NCBI GenBank assembly: GCA_027919835.1
Contig: JANVFP010000009.1
Location: 1,364,001 to 1,428,000, forward strand
Source: Lentinula raphanica
Taxonomy: Eukaryota > Basidiomycota > Agaricomycetes > Agaricales > Omphalotaceae
Direction: 5' to 3'
DNA: 64,000 nt
Under the pieces are notes generated by a model. It did no database searches. It saw only the letters and a program-made list of their open reading frames with translations, and was not told where the DNA came from. This document shows, piece after piece, positions 3,746 to 36,917 of this stretch. A program made the translations under genes and the position numbers. The stretch's first letter is position 1, and each line of letters opens with the position of its first letter.

Positions 3746-6700
3746 CTAAGGCTTCATCTTGATGTTGCTTACGATCAAGTTCTAGAAAAGATCAAACTTC
3801 AGACTCAGCATCTGGCAAAGAGTGTTATAGAAAAGACCTTGTAGCTCTGAACATCTCCTTTGAACTTGCTGACTGTCTCATTGGCGCATACCCACAACTA
3901 TGTTCAAGTCATGAATGGTGAGATACTGGGTCAAGGCCTTTTCTTACCTCTTTGGCAACATTGGTGATAAATCTCTCATCATGCGAAATGATGATGACGC
4001 CTCCGTTCCACATGTTCAAGGCGTCCATGAGTGCGTCCAGACCCTTAAGATGTTTGATGGGAATCATTGCTCGGTAGTAAAAACTTCAAGGGTTTTACCT
4101 CGATATCCAGATGGTTAGTGGGCTACGTGAAAGATGATGAGGTTTGATTATGTGTTGGGCGATGGCAATTGACATACTTCGTCCAATAGTAGAACATGTG
4201 GTCTTTGTAGCGAGAGCACTGCGAAAGCGACACGAGACTTTTGTCCTCCACTCAACGTACCAATCAATTGTAGGCTAGACAGAGAATATCTTGTTCAGAG
4301 ATACCTTCCAATCTAACGATGCAGAACAAGGACAGACCCAGTCATGCCGCTGATTTGAAAATTACCCAGATGTTGACGGTACTCCTGTTCAGTTTTTCCA
4401 GGGAACTTCGAAGCTAGAAATTGAACGGGTGTCATTGTCGGTACAAGTGAGTCGACGTGATGCTGGGCAAAGTATCCCCTGCCAATAGTCAGTTTTTGAC
4501 AAAACACTCCGATGAACTCCTGCAAACTCACACTCGTAATCGACCATTCCGATTGACCTGGCCACCCAAAGGATTGAGGTCACCGGTTAATATTTTGACT
4601 CTGTAAAAAGAGTTCGATATCATTATCTAATGTAACTTTAAGACTTGGAAGTATGACATACAGTGTAGATTTCCCAGAACCATTAGCACCGACAATGGCT
4701 ATCCTGGAGTCCAATCCGACATCGAAGCTGACATTTTTGAGAATCATTTTCTCGGGTGTATACCCGAATGTTACTTCCGACATCTGCAGCAGAGGCGGTG
4801 ATATTTTCTCCGTTTCAGGGAACCTGGTGTTTATCTCAATAATTTCAGTAGAGATATCTACAGATCCATACACACTTGAAGTTTTCGGTTTCATCCTCCT
4901 CGGGTGGTTGGAGATCAGGTAGCTACAGAGTCTCTGAATGTCAAAGATTGTTCCCAGTCTTGTGTAATCAGGACGTCACCTTTTCCAGTATCTTGATTTT
5001 CGATTGAGCCTGGGCAGCTATGAAGAATCACAACATTACTCTCATTAGGGATTCGAGTTGAATGCTCACCGCGATTAGCATTGTACCGCCACCGATCGAT
5101 AAACGCTTGCAGATGTTTTCGATAATCCATCTGAGCATCGTATTCCTTGCGAAGGTTTCGATCTCGTTCGGATTTGGTGGAATAGAATTGCGTGAAGTTT
5201 CTATAAAGGCATCACATCAGAAACTCTGACCCTAGCCGTTTATCCGTCGTACCCTTTGTAGTAATCCAATCTGCCAGAATGTTGATGAACGATGTCCGTA
5301 GCAACTGCGTCGCTATACATACAGCACAGTCAGTATGATCAGTCATGCACGGTATGTTGAGCCTACAGAAATGCACGGTCATGAGATCTACACATATATG
5401 AACATCATCAAGTGCGGTTTAAAATGGCAAACTGAGCTTACACGACTAATAGGGTTCCTTGCCAGGTTTGAAGATAGTCCTCCAACCAGGCCAGGGCGTT
5501 CAAATCAACTGTTTCTGAGATCAGCAAAAACTGCCCACTCGAAACACGATTTGGACTTACTATGATTTGAAGGTTCGTCGAGTAACAAGAGCGATGGCTT
5601 GATTTGTTGCAATGAGTATCTGTACAAAACATTTGACAAGATATAAATCACCTTGACGAACAGCGCGCGCGCCAAAGCCAGACGCATACTTGGTTCTCGA
5701 TGAACGTTGTCGCTCGATATTCAATTATATACTTACCGCCAACCACCACTGAATGACTTTGTGGGTCTTTTTTGATCAGCTTCATCGAATCCCAAACCTA
5801 TAGACAAAGTCAGCAATAGGTCCTAAAAGACTATCTTACGGTGTATACATACCGGCAAGCAGTGCTGCAGCTCGTGCAGGCCCACTTTCAGCATCCATTT
5901 CAGCCAGCCGCCCATGCACCTCGGCCAACCGCAACGAGGCTTCTTCCCGTGCATCCTCAAATCGTTTATCATCACCCTCGCTTTCCAGTTCGTTCAATTT
6001 GGCGTTGAGCAAGGCTTCCTCCTTCAGAAGATGGTCACGCCAGACGTCGGCTTTCAGTACTGAGTCGAGAGCGATGGTGTCGTCTCCGACAATCTGACTT
6101 CGGATTAGATATAGCAAATCTAGGAGAATGTCATACAAAAGCACAGACCTCTTGTTCGACGAACAGAATCGTGATGTGAGGTGGGATAGGAACCTCCCTC
6201 ATCGCAATGTGGCGCAGTAGTGTTGATTTACCGACACCTGTGTATATGAGCACAGAATATTGCAAGAATTCAGCGGTGCGCGTACCGTTTCGACCGATTA
6301 AGCCATATCGTCTTCCATAAGCGAGCGTTAGAGTTGCACCAGACCTTCCCAAGATTGATTTGTTTCTAGCTTCAATTAAGAAAACAACGTACAATATGCG
6401 ATTCGAACCGAAATTGACGTCGATTGAAGGAAGATGAATGTCTTTGCTCTTGTTCCTTGAGTTGACTGCTTCTAGGGGATTGATCTTGAGAACATGATGA
6501 GAATTCAAAATAGAAGGTCGTAAAGATTGAGCCCACTTTCATGAACATCTCCTCGTACGTTTGCTATATGACCAACATGATGAGTGGTCGAATACTTGTA
6601 AAACTAACGAAAATGACGCACCTGTTTCCGGTGAGCATCCAACAATTTTGATCCTTCATAGAGATCTCTTCGTGCACGCTTTTCTATCTTCGCCTATAAC

Positions 6701-22026: not shown

Positions 22027-22613
22027 TGTTACGACCATAATCCTCGGAGCTCCGTCGGAGCTTCACTCGGCGATTGGACTTAGAGATTTCCTGAATCTCT
22101 CTAGTTATGCCTAGCAGTGTCCGCCTTGTCCCTCTTTCCGATTCCGTCGGCGCATCGGTCTGGTCTTATACTTGATTATGATCTTATTGTTTTATTCTCT
22201 GACAGCTCAGCTGACCTTTATATTGATTTATTTTACAATAGCTTATTGTCTTTCTCACCTCCGATGCTGTAGTACCGAGATGTGTATCGTCTTATTGTAC
22301 TTTAGATTAGACTGACTATCCGTACAGTATATAAGGAGCCTGTACATACTTACATACCTCAGTTTTAATATCAACTTGGATTACCTCGTTAACGTTAACA
22401 CTCCCCTCTGTGCTCTTGGTGTCGTCTTGATCGTTGATCATCGCCGACTCCGAACCTCCGTCGGACTTCGTACACGTTGTACTCGTCCTCCTCTGCTCTC
22501 TTGGTTGAACACGGTAACGTGGCGAGGGTGTTGCTCAATAACAACACCAACGTTCAACAATCCTCTGTGTCTCTGATCGGAGCTCCGACTCCGTCGGTGG
22601 CACGGTCCTAACA
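22027..22613 (+). repeat. 5' LTR of retrotransposon B
   Basis: 587 bp, TG..CA ended. It contains a palindromic AGCTCCGTCGGAGCT near its start and four CCGTCGG motifs. Short frames within it are not genes. Confidence 0.95.
22328..22335 (+). promoter_or_regulatory. TATA box in the 5' LTR of retrotransposon B
   Basis: TATATAAG lies ~285 bp before the LTR end, repeated in the 3' LTR near 30429-30436. It is the best candidate for the element's core promoter, which is inference from sequence alone. Confidence 0.6.
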
Positions 22614-22664
22614 GTATATTAAAACTGATCTCGTCAACGTTGCACTGATTCATCTCTATTCCAT

Positions 22665-24419
22665 ATGGATCGCACTCAACGAACACTACGGGCTCAAACT
22701 CGTGCTGCTCGTCGTCCTCGTACCCCTTCTCCCATTCGGGATGAAGAAAATCCTTTTGTCGCAAATGCTCAGGCTTTGACGGCTTTCAACGAATCTATCT
22801 CTGCAGTTGGTAACCGGAGACCGCGCATTTCTGCGTTCGGTCCCGCTCCTGTTCCTCTTCCGACGGTTACTACTGAAAACGTTCGCGGTGTTTCGGAATC
22901 TACGGAGTATGTCTATCAGACTGCTATTCTGCCTAGTGGTGAACACGTTCGTGTATTAACTCCGAAAGCTAAACGGGTTATCGAAGGTGAACCTGTTCCT
23001 CCACTACAACCACCTCCTACTCCGTCTCGTGCAGCTGCTAGACCTACCCAAGTTCCTTCTCTACCGGGACATTCGCAAGGTAGTCATCATTCCAGGGATC
23101 CGGAACCTCGACGTGATCCTCCGTCGGATCCGCCGGGTTTTCCGCCAGGTTTTCCTGGTGATGAACCGGACGATGAAGGACCTCCCGATGGCCCGAGACG
23201 TGATCCTCCTGAAGGTCCACCAGATGATGGTCCACCTGATGATGGTCCTCCTGAGGGTCCTCCCGGAGGCCCTGGCGACGATCGAGATCCTCCTGACCCA
23301 CCTCCTAATCCACCTCCGTCGGTTCGAAGTCGCTCTTCGAGCTCTTCTCGTTCGTCAGATAACTTGGCTCTTAATGCCTTGATGTCCTTCAACGACACTC
23401 TTGCGGATTTCACATCGGCCTTACGTCCGAAGGAGTCGGAATCGGACTCTGGAAAGACGAAGGTCAAAGACCCTGAACCATTTGATGGTTCTAACCCCCG
23501 AAAACTCAAATCTTTCCTGGTATCTTTGTCTTTGGTATTCATTGATCGTCCGAACTATTTCACTGATCAGCGGAAAATCAATTACGCCTTGTCATACTTG
23601 ACCGGCGCTGCTCGTGAATGGTTTGAACCGGACATCTTGGATCCAAATGTCGAAGCTCTACCTGCTTGGACCACGTCATACGCTGCTTTAGTCCAGGAGC
23701 TGCAGGAAAACTTTGGTTTGTACGATGCGCAGGGTGAGTCCGAAGACAAACTCGGAACCCTTCGGATGCGCAACGACGATAAGGTCGGAGCGTACAATAT
23801 CAAGTTTAACACTCTGGCTGCTGCCTCCGGTTGGGATGTGAACGCTCTCCGATGGGCGTATCAGAAAGGACTAGCACCCCGACTCAAGGACGAAATTGCT
23901 CGTATGCCGGAACCTCGGACTCTTTCCGAATATCGGAGAGAAGTGTTACGGTTGGATAACCGTTACTGGCGCAGAGAAGAAGAGAAGAAGCGGGAAAGTC
24001 ATCGGTTTTCGGAGCCTTCGGACCAAAAGAAAGGAAAGAAGGATGGCAAGAAACCGGTACCGTTTAACTCCTCTCAGAACTCTGGTGCTAATCCGTCCTC
24101 TTCGTCCTCTGGTTCGAACTTTAACAATCAAAAGAAGTTCGGTAATTCCAACAACAACAAAGGCAACTCTGGCAACAAGTTTCCGAAGAAATCGATCGCA
24201 GACAACCTCGGCTCCGACGGCAAGCTTACTCCTGCGGAACGGGAACGTCGTAAGAAGTTTAATCTCTGTCTTTTCTGCGGACAAGGTGGTCATGTCCTTA
24301 AGGACTGTCCCCGGAAGAAGTCCAAAGAAAATGCTGCTAAAGGCAGAGCTGGCGTTCTCGAGGATGTAGCTGAAGAAGAAGAGATTCCGGACTCTCCGTC
24401 GGAGGAACCGGAAAAATAG
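22665..24419 (+). CDS. Retrotransposon B Gag
   Basis: This 584-residue protein begins MDRTQRTLRAQTRAARRPRT. Residues ~130-220 are a proline/aspartate/glycine-rich low-complexity region (DGPPDDGPPEGPPGG). Residues ~265-430 are the Ty3-type capsid, with DPEPFDGSNPRKLKSFL, ALSYLTGAAREWFEP and LGTLRMRNDDKVGAYNIKFN. A basic, asparagine- and serine-rich stretch leads to a CCHC zinc knuckle, CLFCGQGGHVLKDC, near residue 545. The last residues are acidic (EEEEIPDSPSEEPEK). It packages the element RNA into virus-like particles. The TAG stop follows a run of five A residues and the pol frame is open across it in the -1 frame, which suggests Pol is made by frameshifting. Confidence 0.92.
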   Translation: MDRTQRTLRAQTRAARRPRTPSPIRDEENPFVANAQALTAFNESISAVGNRRPRISAFGPAPVPLPTVTTENVRGVSESTEYVYQTAILPSGEHVRVLTPKAKRVIEGEPVPPLQPPPTPSRAAARPTQVPSLPGHSQGSHHSRDPEPRRDPPSDPPGFPPGFPGDEPDDEGPPDGPRRDPPEGPPDDGPPDDGPPEGPPGGPGDDRDPPDPPPNPPPSVRSRSSSSSRSSDNLALNALMSFNDTLADFTSALRPKESESDSGKTKVKDPEPFDGSNPRKLKSFLVSLSLVFIDRPNYFTDQRKINYALSYLTGAAREWFEPDILDPNVEALPAWTTSYAALVQELQENFGLYDAQGESEDKLGTLRMRNDDKVGAYNIKFNTLAAASGWDVNALRWAYQKGLAPRLKDEIARMPEPRTLSEYRREVLRLDNRYWRREEEKKRESHRFSEPSDQKKGKKDGKKPVPFNSSQNSGANPSSSSSGSNFNNQKKFGNSNNNKGNSGNKFPKKSIADNLGSDGKLTPAERERRKKFNLCLFCGQGGHVLKDCPRKKSKENAAKGRAGVLEDVAEEEEIPDSPSEEPEK

Positions 24420-24754
24420 TCCGCAACTCCTGTCCCTCCGCACGAAGCAGGAGTTGCGTTGACCTGGTTCGTGCTCTACCAGAGGTGCTAACTCTCAACG
24501 CGTCCGCTCTTTCTAATCTCGAGAAATCTTTCATCATACCTCTGTCTGCCAAAATTTCTACTATTACTTCTGATTACATTTCCATCTCTTTTGATTCTTT
24601 ACTTGATTCCGGTTCTACTGATTGTTTTATTGATACTTCATTTGTTCGCCAAAAAGAATTCCGACAAAACCTATCCTTACTCCGATCAATCTCCGATTAT
24701 TTGATGGTTCACTTTCTCCGACTCCGATCTCGGAATACGTTTCGTTATCGGTAG
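24416..24754 (+). CDS. Retrotransposon B Pol, protease segment (-1 frame relative to gag)
   Basis: The frame is open from before the gag stop, reading VRNSCPSARSRSCVDL then SNLEKSFIIPLSAK. It carries the aspartic protease core LLDSGSTDCFIDTSFV. It then runs into YLMVHFLRLRSRNT and stops at 24754. The expected protease continuation (LRLFDGSLSPTPISEYVSLS) is in the next frame from about 24670. The shift falls near CAAAAAGAATTCC at ~24650-24665. In a copy with near-identical LTRs this is either a fresh single-base indel or a second frameshift site. Confidence 0.7.
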   Translation: MVRNSCPSARSRSCVDLVRALPEVLTLNASALSNLEKSFIIPLSAKISTITSDYISISFDSLLDSGSTDCFIDTSFVRQKEFRQNLSLLRSISDYLMVHFLRLRSRNTFRYR

Positions 24755-24801
24755 TTTTTCCTTCAAACGAGCAACTACCTCTGGACTTTTATGTCACACC
24801 T

Positions 24802-27800
24802 TTGGATTCTTCTTGTAAAGCAGTTTTAGGATATAGTTTTCTCTCCCGCTGCAATCCGTCGATTGACTGGGTAGCGAAAACAATTACAATCCGAACCACT
24901 GATCAAGTTTTATCACAGACGTCTTCTTCTGAGATACCCTCCGACGGATCGGAGGACTCAGAGAATCTTGATCCGACTCGATACCCTCGGTCACCTCCAG
25001 ATGATCCTCTTCCTACAAGAGCTGGTCGATCTGCCTTCACCTCCCGTTCTCGTTTGAAACCTCGTCCTCTTTCGGACAAATTTCCTTTCGAACCATTGTA
25101 TACTTATCCCTCCGTTGTTCAGATGGCTTCAAAATTGGAATACTCCGGAGTCGATATAGCCTTGGTCGGTGCTACGGTTTTTCATCATGCCTGCAAGATG
25201 TCTGGTATGGAACCCCTTCTACTCTACGCTGTACACTCCGAAGTAGCGGCTAGAGCCTCTCAACCAGCACCGCCGACGGCGACGTCGGACTCTAAATCTC
25301 CTCCTATTCCTAAAGCTTATCGGGATTTCGCTGATGTCTTCGACGAAGTCGAGTCAGAAGTGCTCCCAGAACATAGGTCTTACGACCTGAAGATTGATCT
25401 GGAGGAAGGTGCGGAACCTCCGATCGGAAGGATTTACCCTCTCTCCCCTCGTGAGCTGGAAGCTCTACGAGAATTCATCGACAAACAGTTGGTTAGCGGA
25501 GCTATTCGTCCTTCGACTTCTCCTCACGGAGCTCCTGTTCTCTTCGTTCCGAAGAAGGATGGCTCTCTCCGACTCTGCGTCGACTTCCGAGGACTAAACC
25601 GCATCACCAAAAAAGATCGGTATCCTCTCCCACTCATTTCCGATTTACTTGACGCCCCGAAGAAAGCGAAAATCTATACGAAGTTGGATCTCGCTCATGC
25701 TTATCATCTCGTTCGGATCGCCGACGGAGACGAATGGAAGACCACGTTCCGAACCCGATATGGTTCTTTTGAATGGCTGGTCATGCCGTTTGGTCTCACC
25801 AATGCTCCTGCTGCGTTTCAACGTTTCGTCAATGATATCTTTGCTGACTTACTCGATGTCTGTGTTATAGTCTATCTTGACGATATTCTCATCTACTCCG
25901 ACGATCCGACGGCGCATGAGGAGCATGTCAAAGAGGTTCTTCGACGTCTTCGCAAACACAAACTTTTCTGCAATCCGGCGAAATGTGAATTCGGAATTGA
26001 TACGGTTGAATATCTTGGGTATATTCTCTCCCCCGACGGACTTTCCATGGCCGAGGACAAAATCAAGGCTATTATCGATTGGCCCACGCCAAGGAAGGTT
26101 AAGGACATTCAGTCCTTCCTAGGTTTTGCGAATTTCTATCGTCGTTTTATTCACAATTACAGTGATATCGTCGTTCCGATGAACCGACTCACTCGGAAAG
26201 ATACTCCATGGGTGTGGACTTCGGAATGTCAAGATTCCTTCGATACGCTTAAGCACGCTTTCACTCATGCCCCTATTCTTTCTCATTGGGAACCTGATAA
26301 ACCTCTTATTGTCGAAACAGATGCGTCGGATTATGCTCTAGCAGCTATCCTATCCATCGTCGGCGCCGATGGAGAAATTCATCTGGTGGCCTTCCTTTCT
26401 CGCACTTTCCATTCTGCCGAATTGAACTATGACACTCATGACAAGGAATTGCTAGCTATCTTCGAAGCTTTTAAAGCTTGGCGGCATTACCTTGAAGGTT
26501 CGGGCACTCCGATCGACGTCGTTACGGACCACAAGAATCTGGAGTACTTCTCCACTACGAAGATTCTTACCCGACGGCAGGTCCGATGGTCCGAATACCT
26601 TCATCAGTTCAACTTCGTTATCCGTTTCCGTCCTGGAAAACTCGGTGCGAAACCTGACGCTATGACTAGACGATGGGACGTCTATCCCAAAGAGGGGGAT
26701 ATCGGCTACGCGCAAGTTAATCCTCACAATTTTAGACCCATATTCACTAATGATCAACTCACTACATCACTTCGTGCTACCTTCCTTGAAGGTCCTGTTC
26801 TTCGAGCGTCGGTTGTTATGGACTTTGAAGCAGTTCATCAATCGATCCGAGAACACTATTCCTCCGACGGCGAAGCGATGGCGGGATTGAAGTTGGTCGA
26901 TGATCCTTCTAACCTCCGATGGACTATGGGTTTAGATGGTCTCTTGCGTCTGGATGGTCGAATCTACGTTCCGAACTTCGGAGATCTCAGGTTGCAGATC
27001 CTCCGATTCTTTCATGATCATCCTCTGTCTGGCCACTTTGGTCAGAATCGGACTCTCGAAGCTGTACGTCGTCAATATACCTGGCCAAAGGTACGAGAAT
27101 TCGTTAAGGACTATGTTTCGTCTTGTACGATTTGCGGTCGGAATAAACCCCGTCGGCATCGTCCCTACGGACTTCTCAAACCTCTCCCTGTGCCTTCTCG
27201 TCCTTGGGATTCAATCTCAATGGATTTCATCGAACAACTTCCTGACTCCGACGGCTACACCGCTATCTTGGTCGTAGTCGACCGTGCTTCCAAACAAGCT
27301 ATTTTTATTGCCTGTGACGACAAAATCACCTCCGAACAATTGGCGCAACTTTTCGTTATTCATGTCTTCTCTAAACACGGTGTTCCGAATCATGTTACCT
27401 CCGACCGAGGATCGGAATTCGTTTCGGCGTTTTTCCGAGCTTTAGGTCAAGCTTTGTCGATGGAATTACACTATACGTCTGGTTATCATCCGGAAGCTGA
27501 TGGTCAAACCGAACGAGTAAACCAAACTCTGGAGCAGTACATCCGGATCTATTGTTCTTATCAACAGGACGACTGGTCATCCCTTCTTCCGATTGCGGAA
27601 TTTGCTTATAACAACGCTCCTAACGCTTCTACTGGTCTTACTCCGTTCTTTGCTAACAAAGGCTACCATCCGAACATCACAGTCCGACCGGAGATTGATA
27701 TTCGCTCCGACTTAGCCAAGGATTTCGTTGTTAATCTTGATGAGCTTCATACTTTTCTACGTGATGAAATCACTAATGCTCAAAAGAAATACAAGGAACA

Positions 27801-28293
27801 GGCTGATCAAAAACGAATTTCTCCGCCGGAGTTCTCCGTCGGATCGGAAGTCTTCGTTCTAGCAAAATACATTAGATCCACTCGACCTACAGCGAAGTTT
27901 GCAGAGAAGTATCTTGGACCTTTCACGGTTCTTGAGAAGATCGGCTCTCTCTCATACAAGATACAACTCCCCGATTATCTTCGTCGCATTCATCCTGTCT
28001 TCCATGTCTCACAACTCGAACCCTCCTATCCGAATCCGATTCCGAATCGGACCCAAACACCTCCACCTCCGATCGAGGTTGAAGGTGAAGTTGAGTACCT
28101 CGTTGCTGAAGTACTTGATTCAAAGCTGGACCGTCGGTTCAAACGTTGTCCCCTCCGGTACTTCGTTAGATGGTCTGGTTATGAAGGTACCGATGAGGAG
28201 TTCTCTTGGGTTGCTGCAGACGACATTCATGCCGACGAACTCATTCCGGCTTTCCACCTCCGATATCCAGACAAACCCGGACCTTTGACTTAG
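24802..28293 (+). CDS. Retrotransposon B Pol: RT, RNase H, integrase, chromodomain
   Basis: The frame is open from ~24670, with the first ATG at 24802 (MDSSCKAVLGYSFLSRCNPS). Domains in order: end of protease; RT with VPKKDGSLRLCVDFRGLN, WLVMPFGLTNAPAAFQ and catalytic YLDD in VIVYLDDILIYS; RNase H with IVETDASDYALAAILS and VVTDHKNLEYF; integrase HHCC zinc finger (H..H in HDHPLSGHFGQNR, CTICGRNK); DDE core with SISMDFIEQLPDSDG, VTSDRGSEFVS and HPEADGQTERVNQTLE. A C-terminal chromodomain reads EYLVAEVLDSKLDRRF and YFVRWSGYEGTDEEFSW. That makes it a chromovirus, whose integrase may be guided to modified chromatin. All catalytic residues I can place are present. The stop is at 28291-28293. Confidence 0.95.
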   Translation: MDSSCKAVLGYSFLSRCNPSIDWVAKTITIRTTDQVLSQTSSSEIPSDGSEDSENLDPTRYPRSPPDDPLPTRAGRSAFTSRSRLKPRPLSDKFPFEPLYTYPSVVQMASKLEYSGVDIALVGATVFHHACKMSGMEPLLLYAVHSEVAARASQPAPPTATSDSKSPPIPKAYRDFADVFDEVESEVLPEHRSYDLKIDLEEGAEPPIGRIYPLSPRELEALREFIDKQLVSGAIRPSTSPHGAPVLFVPKKDGSLRLCVDFRGLNRITKKDRYPLPLISDLLDAPKKAKIYTKLDLAHAYHLVRIADGDEWKTTFRTRYGSFEWLVMPFGLTNAPAAFQRFVNDIFADLLDVCVIVYLDDILIYSDDPTAHEEHVKEVLRRLRKHKLFCNPAKCEFGIDTVEYLGYILSPDGLSMAEDKIKAIIDWPTPRKVKDIQSFLGFANFYRRFIHNYSDIVVPMNRLTRKDTPWVWTSECQDSFDTLKHAFTHAPILSHWEPDKPLIVETDASDYALAAILSIVGADGEIHLVAFLSRTFHSAELNYDTHDKELLAIFEAFKAWRHYLEGSGTPIDVVTDHKNLEYFSTTKILTRRQVRWSEYLHQFNFVIRFRPGKLGAKPDAMTRRWDVYPKEGDIGYAQVNPHNFRPIFTNDQLTTSLRATFLEGPVLRASVVMDFEAVHQSIREHYSSDGEAMAGLKLVDDPSNLRWTMGLDGLLRLDGRIYVPNFGDLRLQILRFFHDHPLSGHFGQNRTLEAVRRQYTWPKVREFVKDYVSSCTICGRNKPRRHRPYGLLKPLPVPSRPWDSISMDFIEQLPDSDGYTAILVVVDRASKQAIFIACDDKITSEQLAQLFVIHVFSKHGVPNHVTSDRGSEFVSAFFRALGQALSMELHYTSGYHPEADGQTERVNQTLEQYIRIYCSYQQDDWSSLLPIAEFAYNNAPNASTGLTPFFANKGYHPNITVRPEIDIRSDLAKDFVVNLDELHTFLRDEITNAQKKYKEQADQKRISPPEFSVGSEVFVLAKYIRSTRPTAKFAEKYLGPFTVLEKIGSLSYKIQLPDYLRRIHPVFHVSQLEPSYPNPIPNRTQTPPPPIEVEGEVEYLVAEVLDSKLDRRFKRCPLRYFVRWSGYEGTDEEFSWVAADDIHADELIPAFHLRYPDKPGPLT

Positions 28294-28623
28294 CTATGTG
28301 TTCATTTTATATCATTGATTTTACTTCTGTTTTCATTGTTGTACTAACACTACACTTCGGTGTATTTTATTCAACACTCTCGGTATTTATACTGATTGAG
28401 TATAAACGCGATGATAGCAAATTGAGCGTTTATATTTTTTTCTTAAATTTTTCTAAGTCAAATCCGACGGATTTCCGTCGGACTTATCGTTGTTTTATTT
28501 ACTATAGTTACTTTACTATGTTTCTTTCAGTTGGACTTCACAATTAACAAACTTTAGTATATACAAATTGGACTTCAAGAAAAAACCAAGAAATTTATAT
28601 ACAATAAGTATTATTACAAGTTC

Positions 28624-29862
28624 TTACTCCTCTTCCTCCTCCGAGTCCGATCCCTTCGGCGCTTCCTTGGTTCCCTCCTGTTGTTCCTCTTCATCTTCCT
28701 CTACTCCCAAGGCTTTCTTCATCAAGTAAACGAGAGTTCCTTCGAGGTTTGAAAACCTCCTCTCGATCGCCTGTAGGCGTCCGTCGGTGTTGGATGCGGA
28801 GTCTCGGACCAACTCCAAGATTTCATGTTGGCCTTGGACGATGTCGACGAAACCCTCCTTGAGGGCTTGGATATCCACCTCCAAGTTATTCAACCTGGAG
28901 GCGGTGTCGGTTTCCTTTCGGCGAGATGCCGGAGCTTTGGCCTTTCGAGGTTTCGACTTTCGAGTCGGAGCGACGGCGGCGATGGAACCGGACCACGTAC
29001 ACTGCTGCTTATTGTCGTGGCAGGGCTGGCAAGCAGTGGCGTTTTTCCTCTTCTTCTGAGGAACACACTGTTCCGCTCGTTCGAGCCGGATACACCTCTC
29101 GCATGCTCCTCGTTCCTCCGGCGATTCTTCTCCGCTGGGGTGCGGCTCGTCGTCCGAGCTGTCGTCCTCTCCGTCGTCTCCTCCCGGATATTCGTCGTCA
29201 CTGGGATCTCCACCAGTTCCGACGTTCTGTCTTCAAGTTAGGAAAAGGCATTGAAGAAAAAGATCAGTAACTTACCACAAAAGGAACAAATGGAAACTCG
29301 GGTACATACCTTATACGAGAGGGTCCCGCTTCTGGAATGGCCTCTGTCGGCGATGCTCGGGTAGAGGCGTTCTATAAGGCAATTTAGTGTTATCAGAGGA
29401 AAAGGAGCTGTTACTCACCGAGGTCCTCGAGAACCGACGAAGTCGAGCAGCTCGAAGCTGCTCCGACGACGGTCCCTGACCGGAGTCAGCGACTTTGGTC
29501 CTTTTGGCCTTCCCGGCCTTCTCCTCCTCTGCCTTCCTCTTCTTTCCCTCTTTAACCTTCCGGCGGCGTTCCGCCTCTGCTTGTTCCTCCGCCTCACGTT
29601 GGAGCTTCTCCTCCTCCGCTCGGCGTGCTGCTTCTTCTTCCTCCTTTTTCTTTTCCTCCGCTTCCTCCTCCTCACGTCGGCGTTGGTTTTCCTCCCTCCG
29701 CCGCTGCATTTCTTGCAGGGCCGCCTCCTCCTCCTCGGCCTCTCGTCGTCGTCGTTCGGCGGGCGTTTCAGTAGTTGGCTGGAGGAATATCCGAAGTTCT
29801 TCCTCCCTGCCGACGGCGGTGGTGGTGGTGATGGTACTGATGTTTGGGCGAGGGCGCGACAT
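28624..29862 (-). CDS. Antisense accessory gene of retrotransposon B: Zn2Cys6-like, coiled-coil protein
   Basis: Three exons join in frame: 29862-29419, 29371-29310 and 29230-28624. The introns are 47 bp (GTGAGT..TATAG) and 79 bp (GTATGT..TGAAG), giving 1113 nt and 370 residues. Residues ~35-125 are a highly charged coiled coil (ERRRREAEEEEAALQEMQRR). Near residue 220 a cysteine cluster reads CERCIRLERAEQC and then CQPCHDNKQQC, spacing C-x2-C-x8-C-x11-C-x2-C-x6-C. That is close to the fungal Zn2Cys6 pattern C-x2-C-x6-C-x5-12-C-x2-C-x6-8-C. A basic patch (RKSKPRKAKAPASRRK) follows, then a second leucine-rich coiled coil (NNLEVDIQALKEGFVDIVQG) and a glutamate-rich end. It lies between pol and the 3' LTR and is transcribed towards pol. 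Clean introns and an unbroken frame argue for function. Function is unknown; a DNA-binding regulator is inferred. Confidence 0.8.
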
Positions 29863-30114
29863 GACGTAAGAGGGAAATTTTGGCTAAGTCCCTTATTCAC
29901 CTTCGGCTTTTATACCTTTGGATCGGCGCACGGACCATGCTACTTTAGGGCCGGTCGATTCGCGTTTAGTTTTGAGACCACCATCAAAACGTTTTTCCAA
30001 ATCGGGCACCCCGATTCCATCGTTCTAGAATCGGACCGACGGAGTCATGTGATCGGATCAACCTAGTCATCTGATCGTGGTGATGATGTCATCGGCTTTC
30101 GAGGGCTCAAGCCT

Positions 30115-30124
30115 AAGAGGGGGA
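30115..30124 (+). other. Polypurine tract of retrotransposon B
   Basis: AAGAGGGGGA lies 4 bp before the 3' LTR, the expected position of the plus-strand priming site. Confidence 0.7.
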
Positions 30125-30127
30125 TAC

Positions 30128-30714
30128 TGTTACGACCATAATCCTCGGAGCTCCGTCGGAGCTTCACTCGGCGATTGGACTTAGAGATTTCCTGAATCTC
30201 TCTAGTTATGCCTAGCAGTGTCCGCCTTGTCCCTCTTTCCGATTCCGTCGGCGCATCGGTCTGGTCTTATACTTGATTATGATCTTATTGTTTTATTCTC
30301 TGACAGCTCAGCTGACCTTTATATTGATTTATTTTACAATAGCTTATTGTCTTTCTCACCTCCGATGCTGTAGTACCGAGATGTGTATCGTCTTATTGTA
30401 CTTTAGATTAGACTGACTATCCGTACAGTATATAAGGAGCCTGTACATACTTACATACCTCAGTTTTAATATCAACTTGGATTACCTCGTTAACGTTAAC
30501 ACTCCCCTCTGTGCTCTCGGTGTCGTCTTGATCGTTGATCATCGCCGACTCCGAACCTCCGTCGGACTTCGTACACGTTGTACTCGTCCTCCTCTGCTCT
30601 CTTGGTTGAACACGGTAACGTGGCGAGGGTGTTGCTCAATAACAACACCAACGTTCAACAATCCTCTGTGTCTCTGATCGGAGCTCCGACTCCGTCGGTG
30701 GCACGGTCCTAACA
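30128..30714 (+). repeat. 3' LTR of retrotransposon B
   Basis: 587 bp, one visible difference from the 5' LTR. The right flank GAAAT is the target duplication. Confidence 0.95.
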
Positions 30715-34095: not shown

Positions 34096-36917
34096 TCTGA
34101 CCTATATTTACTGTTTTGGGTAATCAATAATTATCCAGATATTAAATAAGCGGTACATTTGTAAAAAATCCTGATAAACTATAAAAATTCAAAAAAACCC
34201 AAAAAAAACCTAATTAGGTCAAATCGGGGTATGTAAACAAAATAGCCTTATATGGTAAAAAATGCTGTAGGATCTATCTAGGTGCTAAAAATAGCCAAAA
34301 AATCACTGAAAATACTAAAAATATGTAGGAATGGTATATAGCCTATTGTAGATCCAGGCATCCAAAAATTACCAAAAAAGGAAATTTTTGATGATGATGT
34401 CATCTTGTAGTAAAAAATCTGAAAAAAATTCTAAAAATAGTCAAAAAATTCAGGGGTGCCTTGTTGGCCCTGAAAATGCAAAATAAAAAAAAAATACGCG
34501 ACAAGTATAAAAATTTTTGTTACTCCAAATCATACTAAATCCACTATATAGTCAGTATATATAATGTATATGCTATATTTAGCATCCTAGTACCCTCATT
34601 GGGCTAAAAATAGAACTTGATCTCATCTGGTAGCAAAAAATCTGAAAAAATCATAAAAAATACTCAAAAAATTTAGGGGTGCCTCATTGGCCCTGAAAAT
34701 GCAAAATAAAAAAATTTACACGACACAATTGAAAAACAACATCATTCCAAATCTTATCAAATTTACTATATAGTTAGTATATATTATGTATATACTATTT
34801 ATAACATCCCTAGTACCCTCAATCACTTATATCACTCAAGAATCCTACCAAACTGACAACATTGAGTAAATGTAATGTACATGGTATTTTTAGCACACCT
34901 AGTACCCTTAAAAACTCAGAACAATTTATATCACTCAATATGTTCAGTATACTTAGTACTCATCACATTTAACACACTAAAACTTGGAACAGTACTTATA
35001 TGTATCATACTTGACACAGTTGGCAATGAAAATACTCAAAACAGTGTTATCAGTCACTATACTTAACACACTTAACAGTCAAAAAGTCGGAATAATGTTA
35101 CTTGATATACATAACACACTCATTGTTATACTATAACACACTTATAACAATGAGTTTTGGGCGCTTATGGGCGCTTATTTGGTGTTTTTGAGTCGAAATT
35201 CATTAATAGTACACTCAATAATTTTTGTGTGGGGTTTATACTGTGTCAGGATGTTGTCTATATCATACTCCTCTAGATACAATTCAGAGAACTCGAAAAT
35301 TCAACCTGTGGGGCTGGCTATATTGTGATCTATTGAAATATAACAGTGTTTTATGTAAATATCAATGCATACACCCATGTTATGAAGTCAAACTGCGACT
35401 GGGTCATGGAAAGAGTCATCCTACAACCTATTCCATGCTAACTCTATGTGATACAGCCAAGAGATCTGTAATGGGGGTCATTGAATATGACATCTATTGT
35501 TACATGTAGGTGTAGACATCTATAGTGTACATGAAACATGTACATATATATCACAGAGTCCAATAGTCATAGTGAGTATCTGAACCATGTCCAGACACTT
35601 CTAGTAGACTGTAGGAGTCATTCCTTCATGAACCACTATCAGTATACTTGCATTACATGGACATATGCATTGACATTTACATAAAATACTGTTATATTAC
35701 AAAAGATCACAATATAGCCAGCCCCACAGGTTGAATTTTCAAGTTTTCTGAATTGTATCTAGATAAGTGATATAGACAACATTGTGACACAATATAGAGC
35801 CCACACAAAAATTACTGAGTGTGCTATTAATGAATTTTGACTCAAAAACACCAAATAAGCGCCCAAAACCCGTTGTTATAAGTGTGTTGTAGTATAACAA
35901 TAAGTGTGTTATGTATATCAAGTAACATTATTCCGACTTTTTGACTGTTAAGTGTGTTAAGTATAGTGACTGATAACACTGTTTTGAGTATTTTCATTGC
36001 CAACTGTGTTAAGTATGATACATATAAGTACTGTTCCGAGTTTTAGTGTGTTAAATGTGATGAGTACTAAGTATACTGAACATATTGAGTGATATAAATT
36101 GTTCTGAGTTTTTAAGGGTACTAGGTGTGCTAAAAATACCATGTACATTACATTTACTCAATGTTGTCAGTTTAGTAGGATTCTTGAGTGATATAAGTGA
36201 TTGAGGGTACTAGGGATGCTATAAATAGTATATACATAATATATACTAACTATATAGTAAATTTGATAAGATTTGGAATGATGTTGTTTTTCAATTGTGT
36301 CATGTAAATTTTATTTTGCATTTTCAGGGCCAATGAGGCACCCCTAAAATTTTTGAGTATTTTTTATGATTTTTTCAGATTTTTTGCTACCAGATGAGAT
36401 CAAGTTCTATTTGTAGCCCAATGAGGGTACTAGGATGCTAAATATAGCATATACATTATATATACTGACTATATAGTGGATTTGGTATGATTTGGAGTAA
36501 CAAAAATTTTTACACTTGTCGCGTATTTTTTTTTATTTTGCATTTTCAGGGCCAACAAGGCACCCCTGAATTTTTTGACTATTTTTAGGATTTTTTTCAG
36601 ATTTTTTGCTACAAGATGACATCATCATCAAAAATTTCCTTTTTGGTAATTTTTGGATGCCTGGATCTACAATAGGCTATATACCATTCCTACATATTTT
36701 TAGCATTTTCAGTGATTTTTTGGCTATTTTTAGCACCTAGATAGATCCTACAGCATTTTTTACTATATAAGGCTATTTTGTTTACATACCCCGATTTGAC
36801 CTAATTAGGTTTTTTTGGGTTTTTTTGAATTTTTATAGTTTATCAGGATTTTTTACAAATGTACTGCTTATTTAATATCTGGATAATTATTAATTACCCA
36901 AAACAGTAAATATAGGT
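34096..36917. repeat. P1 giant palindrome (arms 34096-35371 / 35663-36917)
   Basis: The left arm begins CTGACCTATATTTACTG and the right arm ends CAGTAAATATAGGTCAG. The two arms match at nearly every position I compared, with scattered single-base changes and small indels. The unmatched loop 35372-35662 includes GGGGTCATTGAATATGACAT and is conserved in the other three copies. Confidence 0.88.

Follow-up and report, generated by a model that had tools for sequence, protein, structure and literature searches.

Why should a young retrotransposon carry an additional spliced gene on the strand opposite to gag and pol, and what might such a gene do for it? This question is raised by a 64,000-nucleotide stretch of Lentinula raphanica DNA (hereafter the window; C9:1364001-1428000 of the 49-Mb assembly that was searched), in which a Ty3-type retrotransposon contains a three-exon antisense gene. 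According to the available excerpts of PMC7264820, the function of antisense accessory genes of long terminal repeat (LTR) elements is unsettled. An earlier note on this DNA held that Ty3/gypsy elements normally carry only gag and pol; this is too narrow, as antisense extra genes in the slot have precedent in Grande, RIRE2, Retand and Boty. Here, we report that the gene is under purifying selection, that it lies in a hypervariable cassette and that the element is filled with CCG-N-CGG sites. We propose an accessory gene of this Ty3-type family that encodes a DNA-binding dimer acting via these sites, a statement which, taken in full, we regard as evenly balanced between right and wrong.

The gene runs on the minus strand from an ATG at 29862 to a stop codon at 28624 (Table 1), and its structure is exactly that given in the earlier note: three exons, two introns and a product of 370 amino acids (369 if an acceptor 3 nt further on is used), including the cysteine pattern C-x2-C-x8-C-x11-C-x2-C-x6-C. 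Its location between pol and the 3' LTR is borne out as well, since the pol open reading frame (ORF) ends at 28293 and the LTR occupies 30128-30714. The Glu/Arg/Lys-rich region of exon 1 (about 29488-29763) is long and looks coiled-coil-like by eye. A promoter of its own had also been postulated, and a putative antisense TATA box 45 nt before the ATG is present in all 15 copies inspected for it, which comprise the cassette types A and B described below. Transcription would probably start from this promoter, just inside the 3' LTR, and the transcript would be spliced twice; the introns, being antisense to the genomic RNA, would survive retrotransposition.

Copies of the gene were aligned from 34 places (the window, L002-L030 and four longer loci). 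In 21 of them, the conserved splice positions yield an open frame exceeding 360 codons, with L023 counted only by way of a shifted stretch and L021 giving no model. Openness alone proves little, because in other copies the corresponding stretch contains sense frames as long as 267 codons. Such long sense frames would suit an explanation in which no protein is made, the antisense frame being due to chance or to an antisense RNA and its low ratio of nonsynonymous to synonymous substitution rates (dN/dS) reflecting sense-strand constraint. However, most changes fall at third positions of the antisense frame (127 between the window and L010, vs 35 and 36 at the other positions), and splice positions are kept even though intron 1 of the window is only 36-43% identical to that of type B copies. 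In type B (e.g. L026, L027 and L041) this intron has 54-56 nt and is apparently GC-AG, compared with GT-AG in type A. The exon/intron layout is also shared by copies with as little as about 56% identity between their exon-3 proteins. The cysteines are conserved too: all six are found in 29 of 29 sequences of alignment A2, including a relative of 31% identity. A2 comprises chosen sequences and omits P0001, P0002, P0007, P0012-P0014 and P0016, and the annotated protein P0002 is without part of the cluster.

Across the 20 pairs that include the window copy, dN/dS was 0.11-0.25. For the 210 pairs among 21 copies, the medians by rising dS class were 0.28, 0.16, 0.12, 0.14 and 0.21 (0.12-0.21 in dS classes above 0.05). 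Individual pairs ranged from 0 to 0.45 among the 4 pairs of the lowest class, from 0.10 to 0.81 in the next one and from 0.07 to 0.30 in the three higher classes. Thus, the selection suspected earlier is seen across copies, and it is purifying. Because splice positions, cysteines and dN/dS are all conserved, the gene stands above chance; it is almost certain that it is real and under selection, and an explanation without a protein is extremely unlikely.

Searching the genome with exon 3 gave 43 matches, a few of which are pieces of one copy. Wherever gene and pol were both found in this genome, the gene is antisense to pol, in keeping with the earlier note: this was the case for all 25 pol-carrying loci among 30 taken from the exon 3 matches and for seven of nine further loci (L040-L048), the remaining 7 of these 39 loci having no pol or no gene within the stretch examined. 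In the reverse direction, 40 matches to the pol end were obtained, 32 of them covering the entire query, and a gene match lies within about 1.4 kb of 28 of these 32. For one on C19 the gene match is 3.4 kb off, and three others have none nearby. We considered whether these three are pol copies truly without the gene and rejected this, as gene traces could be read at each: one has an internally deleted gene, and two enter the gene 3' end for 17 and 76 nt and then break off, probably owing to nested insertion. A protein database search returned 16 matches, all named Lentinula raphanica, and among viral contigs 72 stretches matched the pattern of alignment A1, none encoding a relative. A literature search over a limited collection and set of terms revealed no antisense zinc-cluster gene in a basidiomycete element.

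These distributions bear on the possibility that the gene is a captured host zinc-cluster gene carried as ordinary passenger cargo. Such an origin could be reflected in the lone 31% relative (L048:6786-8431, i.e., C37:142585-144230, minus strand), which has the same six cysteines and a similar layout; no copy of this element was found in the 9.9 kb there, and the genome has no closer match to it. It is just as possible, however, that the host co-opted an element gene here, and simple cargo appears very unlikely in view of the gene adjoining 28 of the 32 full pol ends, with traces at three others, and of its presence in all cassette types under long-term purifying selection. The lone relative may be a host gene that derives from the element gene or, conversely, one from which the element gene descends. 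By eye, the start of its first exon resembles the N-terminus of an adjacent ORF (5296-6591) that has a SNARE match below cut-off, which suggests a fusion with a partial duplicate of that ORF.

What kind of protein is encoded? The canonical Zn2Cys6 spacing is C-x2-C-x6-C-x(5-12)-C-x2-C-x(6-8)-C; the first loop of the present cluster has 8 residues and departs from it, while the remaining spacing fits. The Pfam family PF00172 (Zn_clus) matched two of five members with a best E of 0.3, below the Pfam cut-off, and the full window protein matched no Pfam family. When the model of exon 3 was used in a structure search, all seven PDB rows listed were Zn2Cys6 domains, at low scores (GAL4 twice, LAC9, Pho7 twice, Leu3 and PPR1). 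The helix formed by residues 108-174 of this model had block values of the predicted local distance difference test (pLDDT) mostly of 88-95, and the cluster modelled alone was poorer (pLDDT 58.9). At this low confidence, the cluster of the earlier note looks Zn2Cys6-like in its predicted fold. Eight PDB matches by sequence (best E 0.095) and the Pfam matches to the helix region, such as SKA2 (five of five members, best E 0.0012), were set aside as coiled-coil noise.

The element itself is crowded with a candidate site. CCG-N1-CGG tops all triplet-gap-triplet pairs in it (gaps 0-12, at least 8 seen): one LTR plus the interior holds 28 sites, compared with 3.4 expected and with a mean of 2.2 and a maximum of 7 in 500 dinucleotide shuffles, and 25 of the 28 have A or T in the middle. 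Gag and pol contain 18 sites, whereas 1000 synonymous permutations gave a mean of 3.7 and a maximum of 11. Three to five sites are present in each cassette coding sequence of the seven copies compared, at positions partly type-specific and partly shared, with permutation fractions of 0.004-0.024 in four copies and 0.118-0.164 in three. The enrichment is seen across the family: the 18 loci L031-L048 have 266 sites in 89.8 kb of element DNA (2.96 per kb) vs 6 in 88.5 kb of non-element DNA (0.07 per kb), and 192 of the 538 genomic occurrences of TCCGWCGGA fall in the fetched loci, which make up 0.52% of the genome.

Palindromic CGG half-sites are the class read by Zn2Cys6 dimers. The predicted cluster fold, basic linker and long coiled coil would give the protein the layout of GAL4-type dimers, with CGG half-sites in the element as a further likeness, although it differs from these factors in its 8-residue first loop, in falling below the Pfam cut-off and in being borne by a retrotransposon. 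We suggest that such a dimer would bind paired CGG half-sites across the whole element, the U3 region of the LTR included, and thereby act in trans on all members of the family, either activating transcription from U3 or keeping silencing chromatin off. From U3 it could control its own gene and, via the 5' LTR, gag-pol, and the sites in the body would extend its control to the entire copy. The DNA-binding part of this proposal seems to us somewhat more probable than its opposite. Among possible functions, the array would favour transcription-factor and anti-silencing roles, and the cassette diversity would suit a role in copy-number control.

Several observations weigh against a role of the sites in binding. 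Single sites are conserved no better than other CpGs, 28 of 161 instances having been lost; a reversed control pattern is equally frequent genome-wide (561 vs 538); and palindromic pairs at L033 score higher (19.6 and 14.0 vs 13.3). Elsewhere, such pair scores reach 10.4 at L047 and 3.6 to 9.0 in other window segments and loci. The pairs enriched at L033 and L047 are GTA-N1-TAC and GGG-N2-CCC, and GGG-N4-CCC, respectively, and perhaps come from tandem repeats. A spaced double-site pattern had no match.

Related elements are present in the genome, among others at about 60% and 48% reverse transcriptase (RT) identity, and one of these sisters was read, the 60% element L052. In the same slot (L052:939-2238) it has antisense ORFs of 107 and 315 amino acids. 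Visual inspection suggests a coiled-coil-like product that lacks the six-cysteine motif, reaches no Pfam cut-off and is apparently unrelated to the zinc-cluster protein. The longer ORF gave 19 matches, 18 of them free of stops; they fall at 18 places and always run antisense to a neighbouring pol match. It is less conserved than pol in distant copies (76% vs 95%, 46% vs 86% and 32% vs 79% identity), whereas the closest copies show no such difference (98-99% vs 96-99%). Antisense genes in this slot are therefore not exclusive to the zinc-cluster family. CCGNCGG occurs once in 4 kb of L052 and is absent from 4.46 kb containing a nested 48% element; in these few cases, the site array accompanies the zinc-cluster version of the gene.

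On the other hand, the array might serve a host DNA-binding factor, RNA packaging or integration, with the antisense protein unrelated to it and engaged, for example, in escorting cDNA into the nucleus. The sites also fill gag and pol, where an ordinary promoter-binding factor would not need them, a scaffold function would suit the acidic, basic and coiled-coil parts of the protein, and L052 has its coiled-coil-like protein without the cysteine cluster. We nevertheless consider this unlikely, given that the site is a palindrome of half-sites of the kind read by Zn2Cys6 dimers and that the two related stretches lacking a Zn2Cys6-like gene hold one site and none, respectively.

The gene lies in a cassette marked by a steep increase in divergence among copies. 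Type assignments (A1, A1 hybrids, A2, A3, A4 and B) were made for 25 of the 34 copies, and pol-end distances were calculated without L002 and L018. Mean p-distances within types, among A types and between A and B were 1.9, 1.7 and 1.8% at the pol end (single pairs up to 3.5%), 4.7, 19.7 and 38.9% in exon 3, 5.0, 17.6 and 36.3% in exon 1, 13.0, 26.7 and 38.6% in the introns plus exon 2, and 1.2, 1.3 and 1.2% at LTR positions 30301 to 30660. The introns are no less divergent than the exons, which marks the types as old and not merely fast. About 500 bp separate the antisense TATA box from the sense U3 TATA box, and within this interval type B differs from type A (by 18.5% and 14.1% in its two parts as far as 30300), unlike in the remainder of the LTR. 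The LTR pairs of all four type B copies measured are 99.66-100% identical, making these copies as young as the window copy. L003 and L006 are mosaics in which an A1 exon 3 is joined to a different exon 1, probably by template switching between co-packaged RNAs.

A self-restriction factor, limiting copies with the same or a similar cassette so that rare cassettes escape and old lineages persist on a shared backbone, would account for several of these features: equal pol-end divergence within and between types beside 18-39% for exons 1 and 3 between types, recent LTR pairs in both A and B, and the reshuffled exons of L003 and L006. Excerpts of PMC7055915 offer a precedent in Ty1 copy-number control by p22 and in mosaic Ty1, where a divergent gene sits on a near-identical backbone with breakpoints at or near gag, the source of the restriction factor. 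However, p22 is gag-derived and sense, whereas here the gene is separate and antisense, and gag has its own frame (22665-24419). Most sites and the cysteine cluster are common to all types, so that type specificity would sit elsewhere in the protein; the divergence of introns points to age and recombination and not to fast amino-acid change; and the mosaics could stem from introgression between species. Self-restriction appears improbable. A bolder picture, speculative and rather doubtful as a whole, is that the element writes its own address: CGG pairs would be kept in LTRs, gag and pol so that one dimer coats all copies, ancient cassettes would be kept by rarity selection, like compatibility types, and slot genes would be replaceable across the clade. 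In any case, the cassette pattern lends itself to studying why a retrotransposon should retain several old gene versions while the remainder is homogenised. The antisense gene combines a recognisable, if predicted, DNA-binding fold with a candidate site across its own element, which makes its role testable with one binding assay.

Comparable genes are found in quite different elements. HBZ of human T-cell leukemia virus type 1 (HTLV-1) is a spliced antisense gene near the 3' LTR that encodes a basic, coiled-coil nuclear regulator of the basic leucine zipper (bZIP) class. The HTLV antisense promoter lies in the 3' LTR, as given in excerpts of PMC7264820. HBZ differs in having bZIP and not a zinc cluster and in belonging to a human retrovirus, and no homology is claimed. 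Closer in host is brtn of Boty in Botrytis cinerea, reportedly described by Zhao et al. 2011; it is likewise an antisense extra gene in a fungal Ty3/gypsy element, but of an ascomycete. VANDAL of Arabidopsis is a DNA transposon. Its anti-silencing protein VANC is element-encoded and has a short motif concentrated in its own family (excerpts of PMC5735166), and the motif described here is also dense in its own element and rare elsewhere. VANC motifs are mainly in noncoding tandem repeats according to the same excerpts, whereas ours are dispersed, with 18 of 28 in gag and pol. The plant aORF-3R genes (Grande gene23, RIRE2, Retand TRP28) resemble the present gene in being antisense, between pol and the 3' LTR and present in most copies, and, like it, may be transcribed independently: gene23 is driven by a promoter of its own and its product is nuclear, while DNA binding is predicted for TRP28 (PMC7264820, PMC11963269). 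They differ in encoding another protein and in not being fungal; the two introns, site array and hypervariable cassette belong to the description of the present element, the plant genes having been compared on other features only.

The host element is of Ty3 type by the order of RT, RNase H and integrase in pol, its LTRs and the 5-bp target repeat GAAAT that flanks it. The LTRs of 587 nt differ at 1 position (99.83% identity), in line with the near-identity noted before. The primer-binding site indicates self-priming, which we take to be of the Tf1-like type. The chromodomain match (PF00385, E 1.1e-4) has 22.5 bits, below the cut-off of 25.1.

Table 1. Positions in the window of the element, the antisense gene and associated features.
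Feature	Position	Strand	Description
Whole element	22027..30714		Ty3-type retrotransposon
5' LTR	22027..22613	+	sense TATA 22328-22335, placed from 3' LTR
Primer-binding site	22616..22628	+	13 nt complementary to LTR 22359-22371, self-priming
gag	22665..24419	+	open frame, Ty3_capsid, weak zinc knuckle
pol	24634..28293	+	stop-to-stop frame; RT, RNase H, integrase, Tf2-like SH3, weak chromodomain
3' LTR	30128..30714	+	sense TATA 30429-30436
CCG-N-CGG array (mostly CCGWCGG)	22027..30714		32 sites vs 4 in other 55 kb of window
Hypervariable cassette	28440..29880		sharp divergence rise between copies; type B out to ~30300
Putative antisense TATA box TATAAAAG	29907..29914	-	45 nt upstream of ATG
Exon 1	29419..29862	-	start codon, Ser/Thr-rich N-terminus, Glu/Arg/Lys-rich region, basic patch
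Intron 1	29372..29418	-	47 nt, GTGAGT...TAG, GT-AG
Exon 2	29310..29371	-	62 nt
Intron 2	29231..29309	-	79 nt, GTATGT...AAG, GT-AG
Exon 3	28624..29230	-	acidic stretch, six-cysteine cluster, basic linker, long helix, acidic tail, stop
Six-cysteine cluster	28999..29103	-	C-x2-C-x8-C-x11-C-x2-C-x6-C
Basic linker, cluster to helix	28909..28962	-	from sequence and alignment
Long helix after cluster, likely coiled coil	28711..28911	-	model residues 108-174

The pol ORF of the window copy has 1219 codons, compared with 1306 in at least a dozen copies, and a protease-like motif is seen by eye in another frame (24374-24754). The window copy may therefore not be autonomous, and family copies with the longer pol frame exist. 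By the look of the flanking ORFs, the element appears to be nested in an older retroelement of opposite orientation. Further downstream, a large inverted repeat lies at 35023-36000 (36000 being the end of the scan), with nested arms of 146, 101 and 164 nt that are 81-97% complementary.
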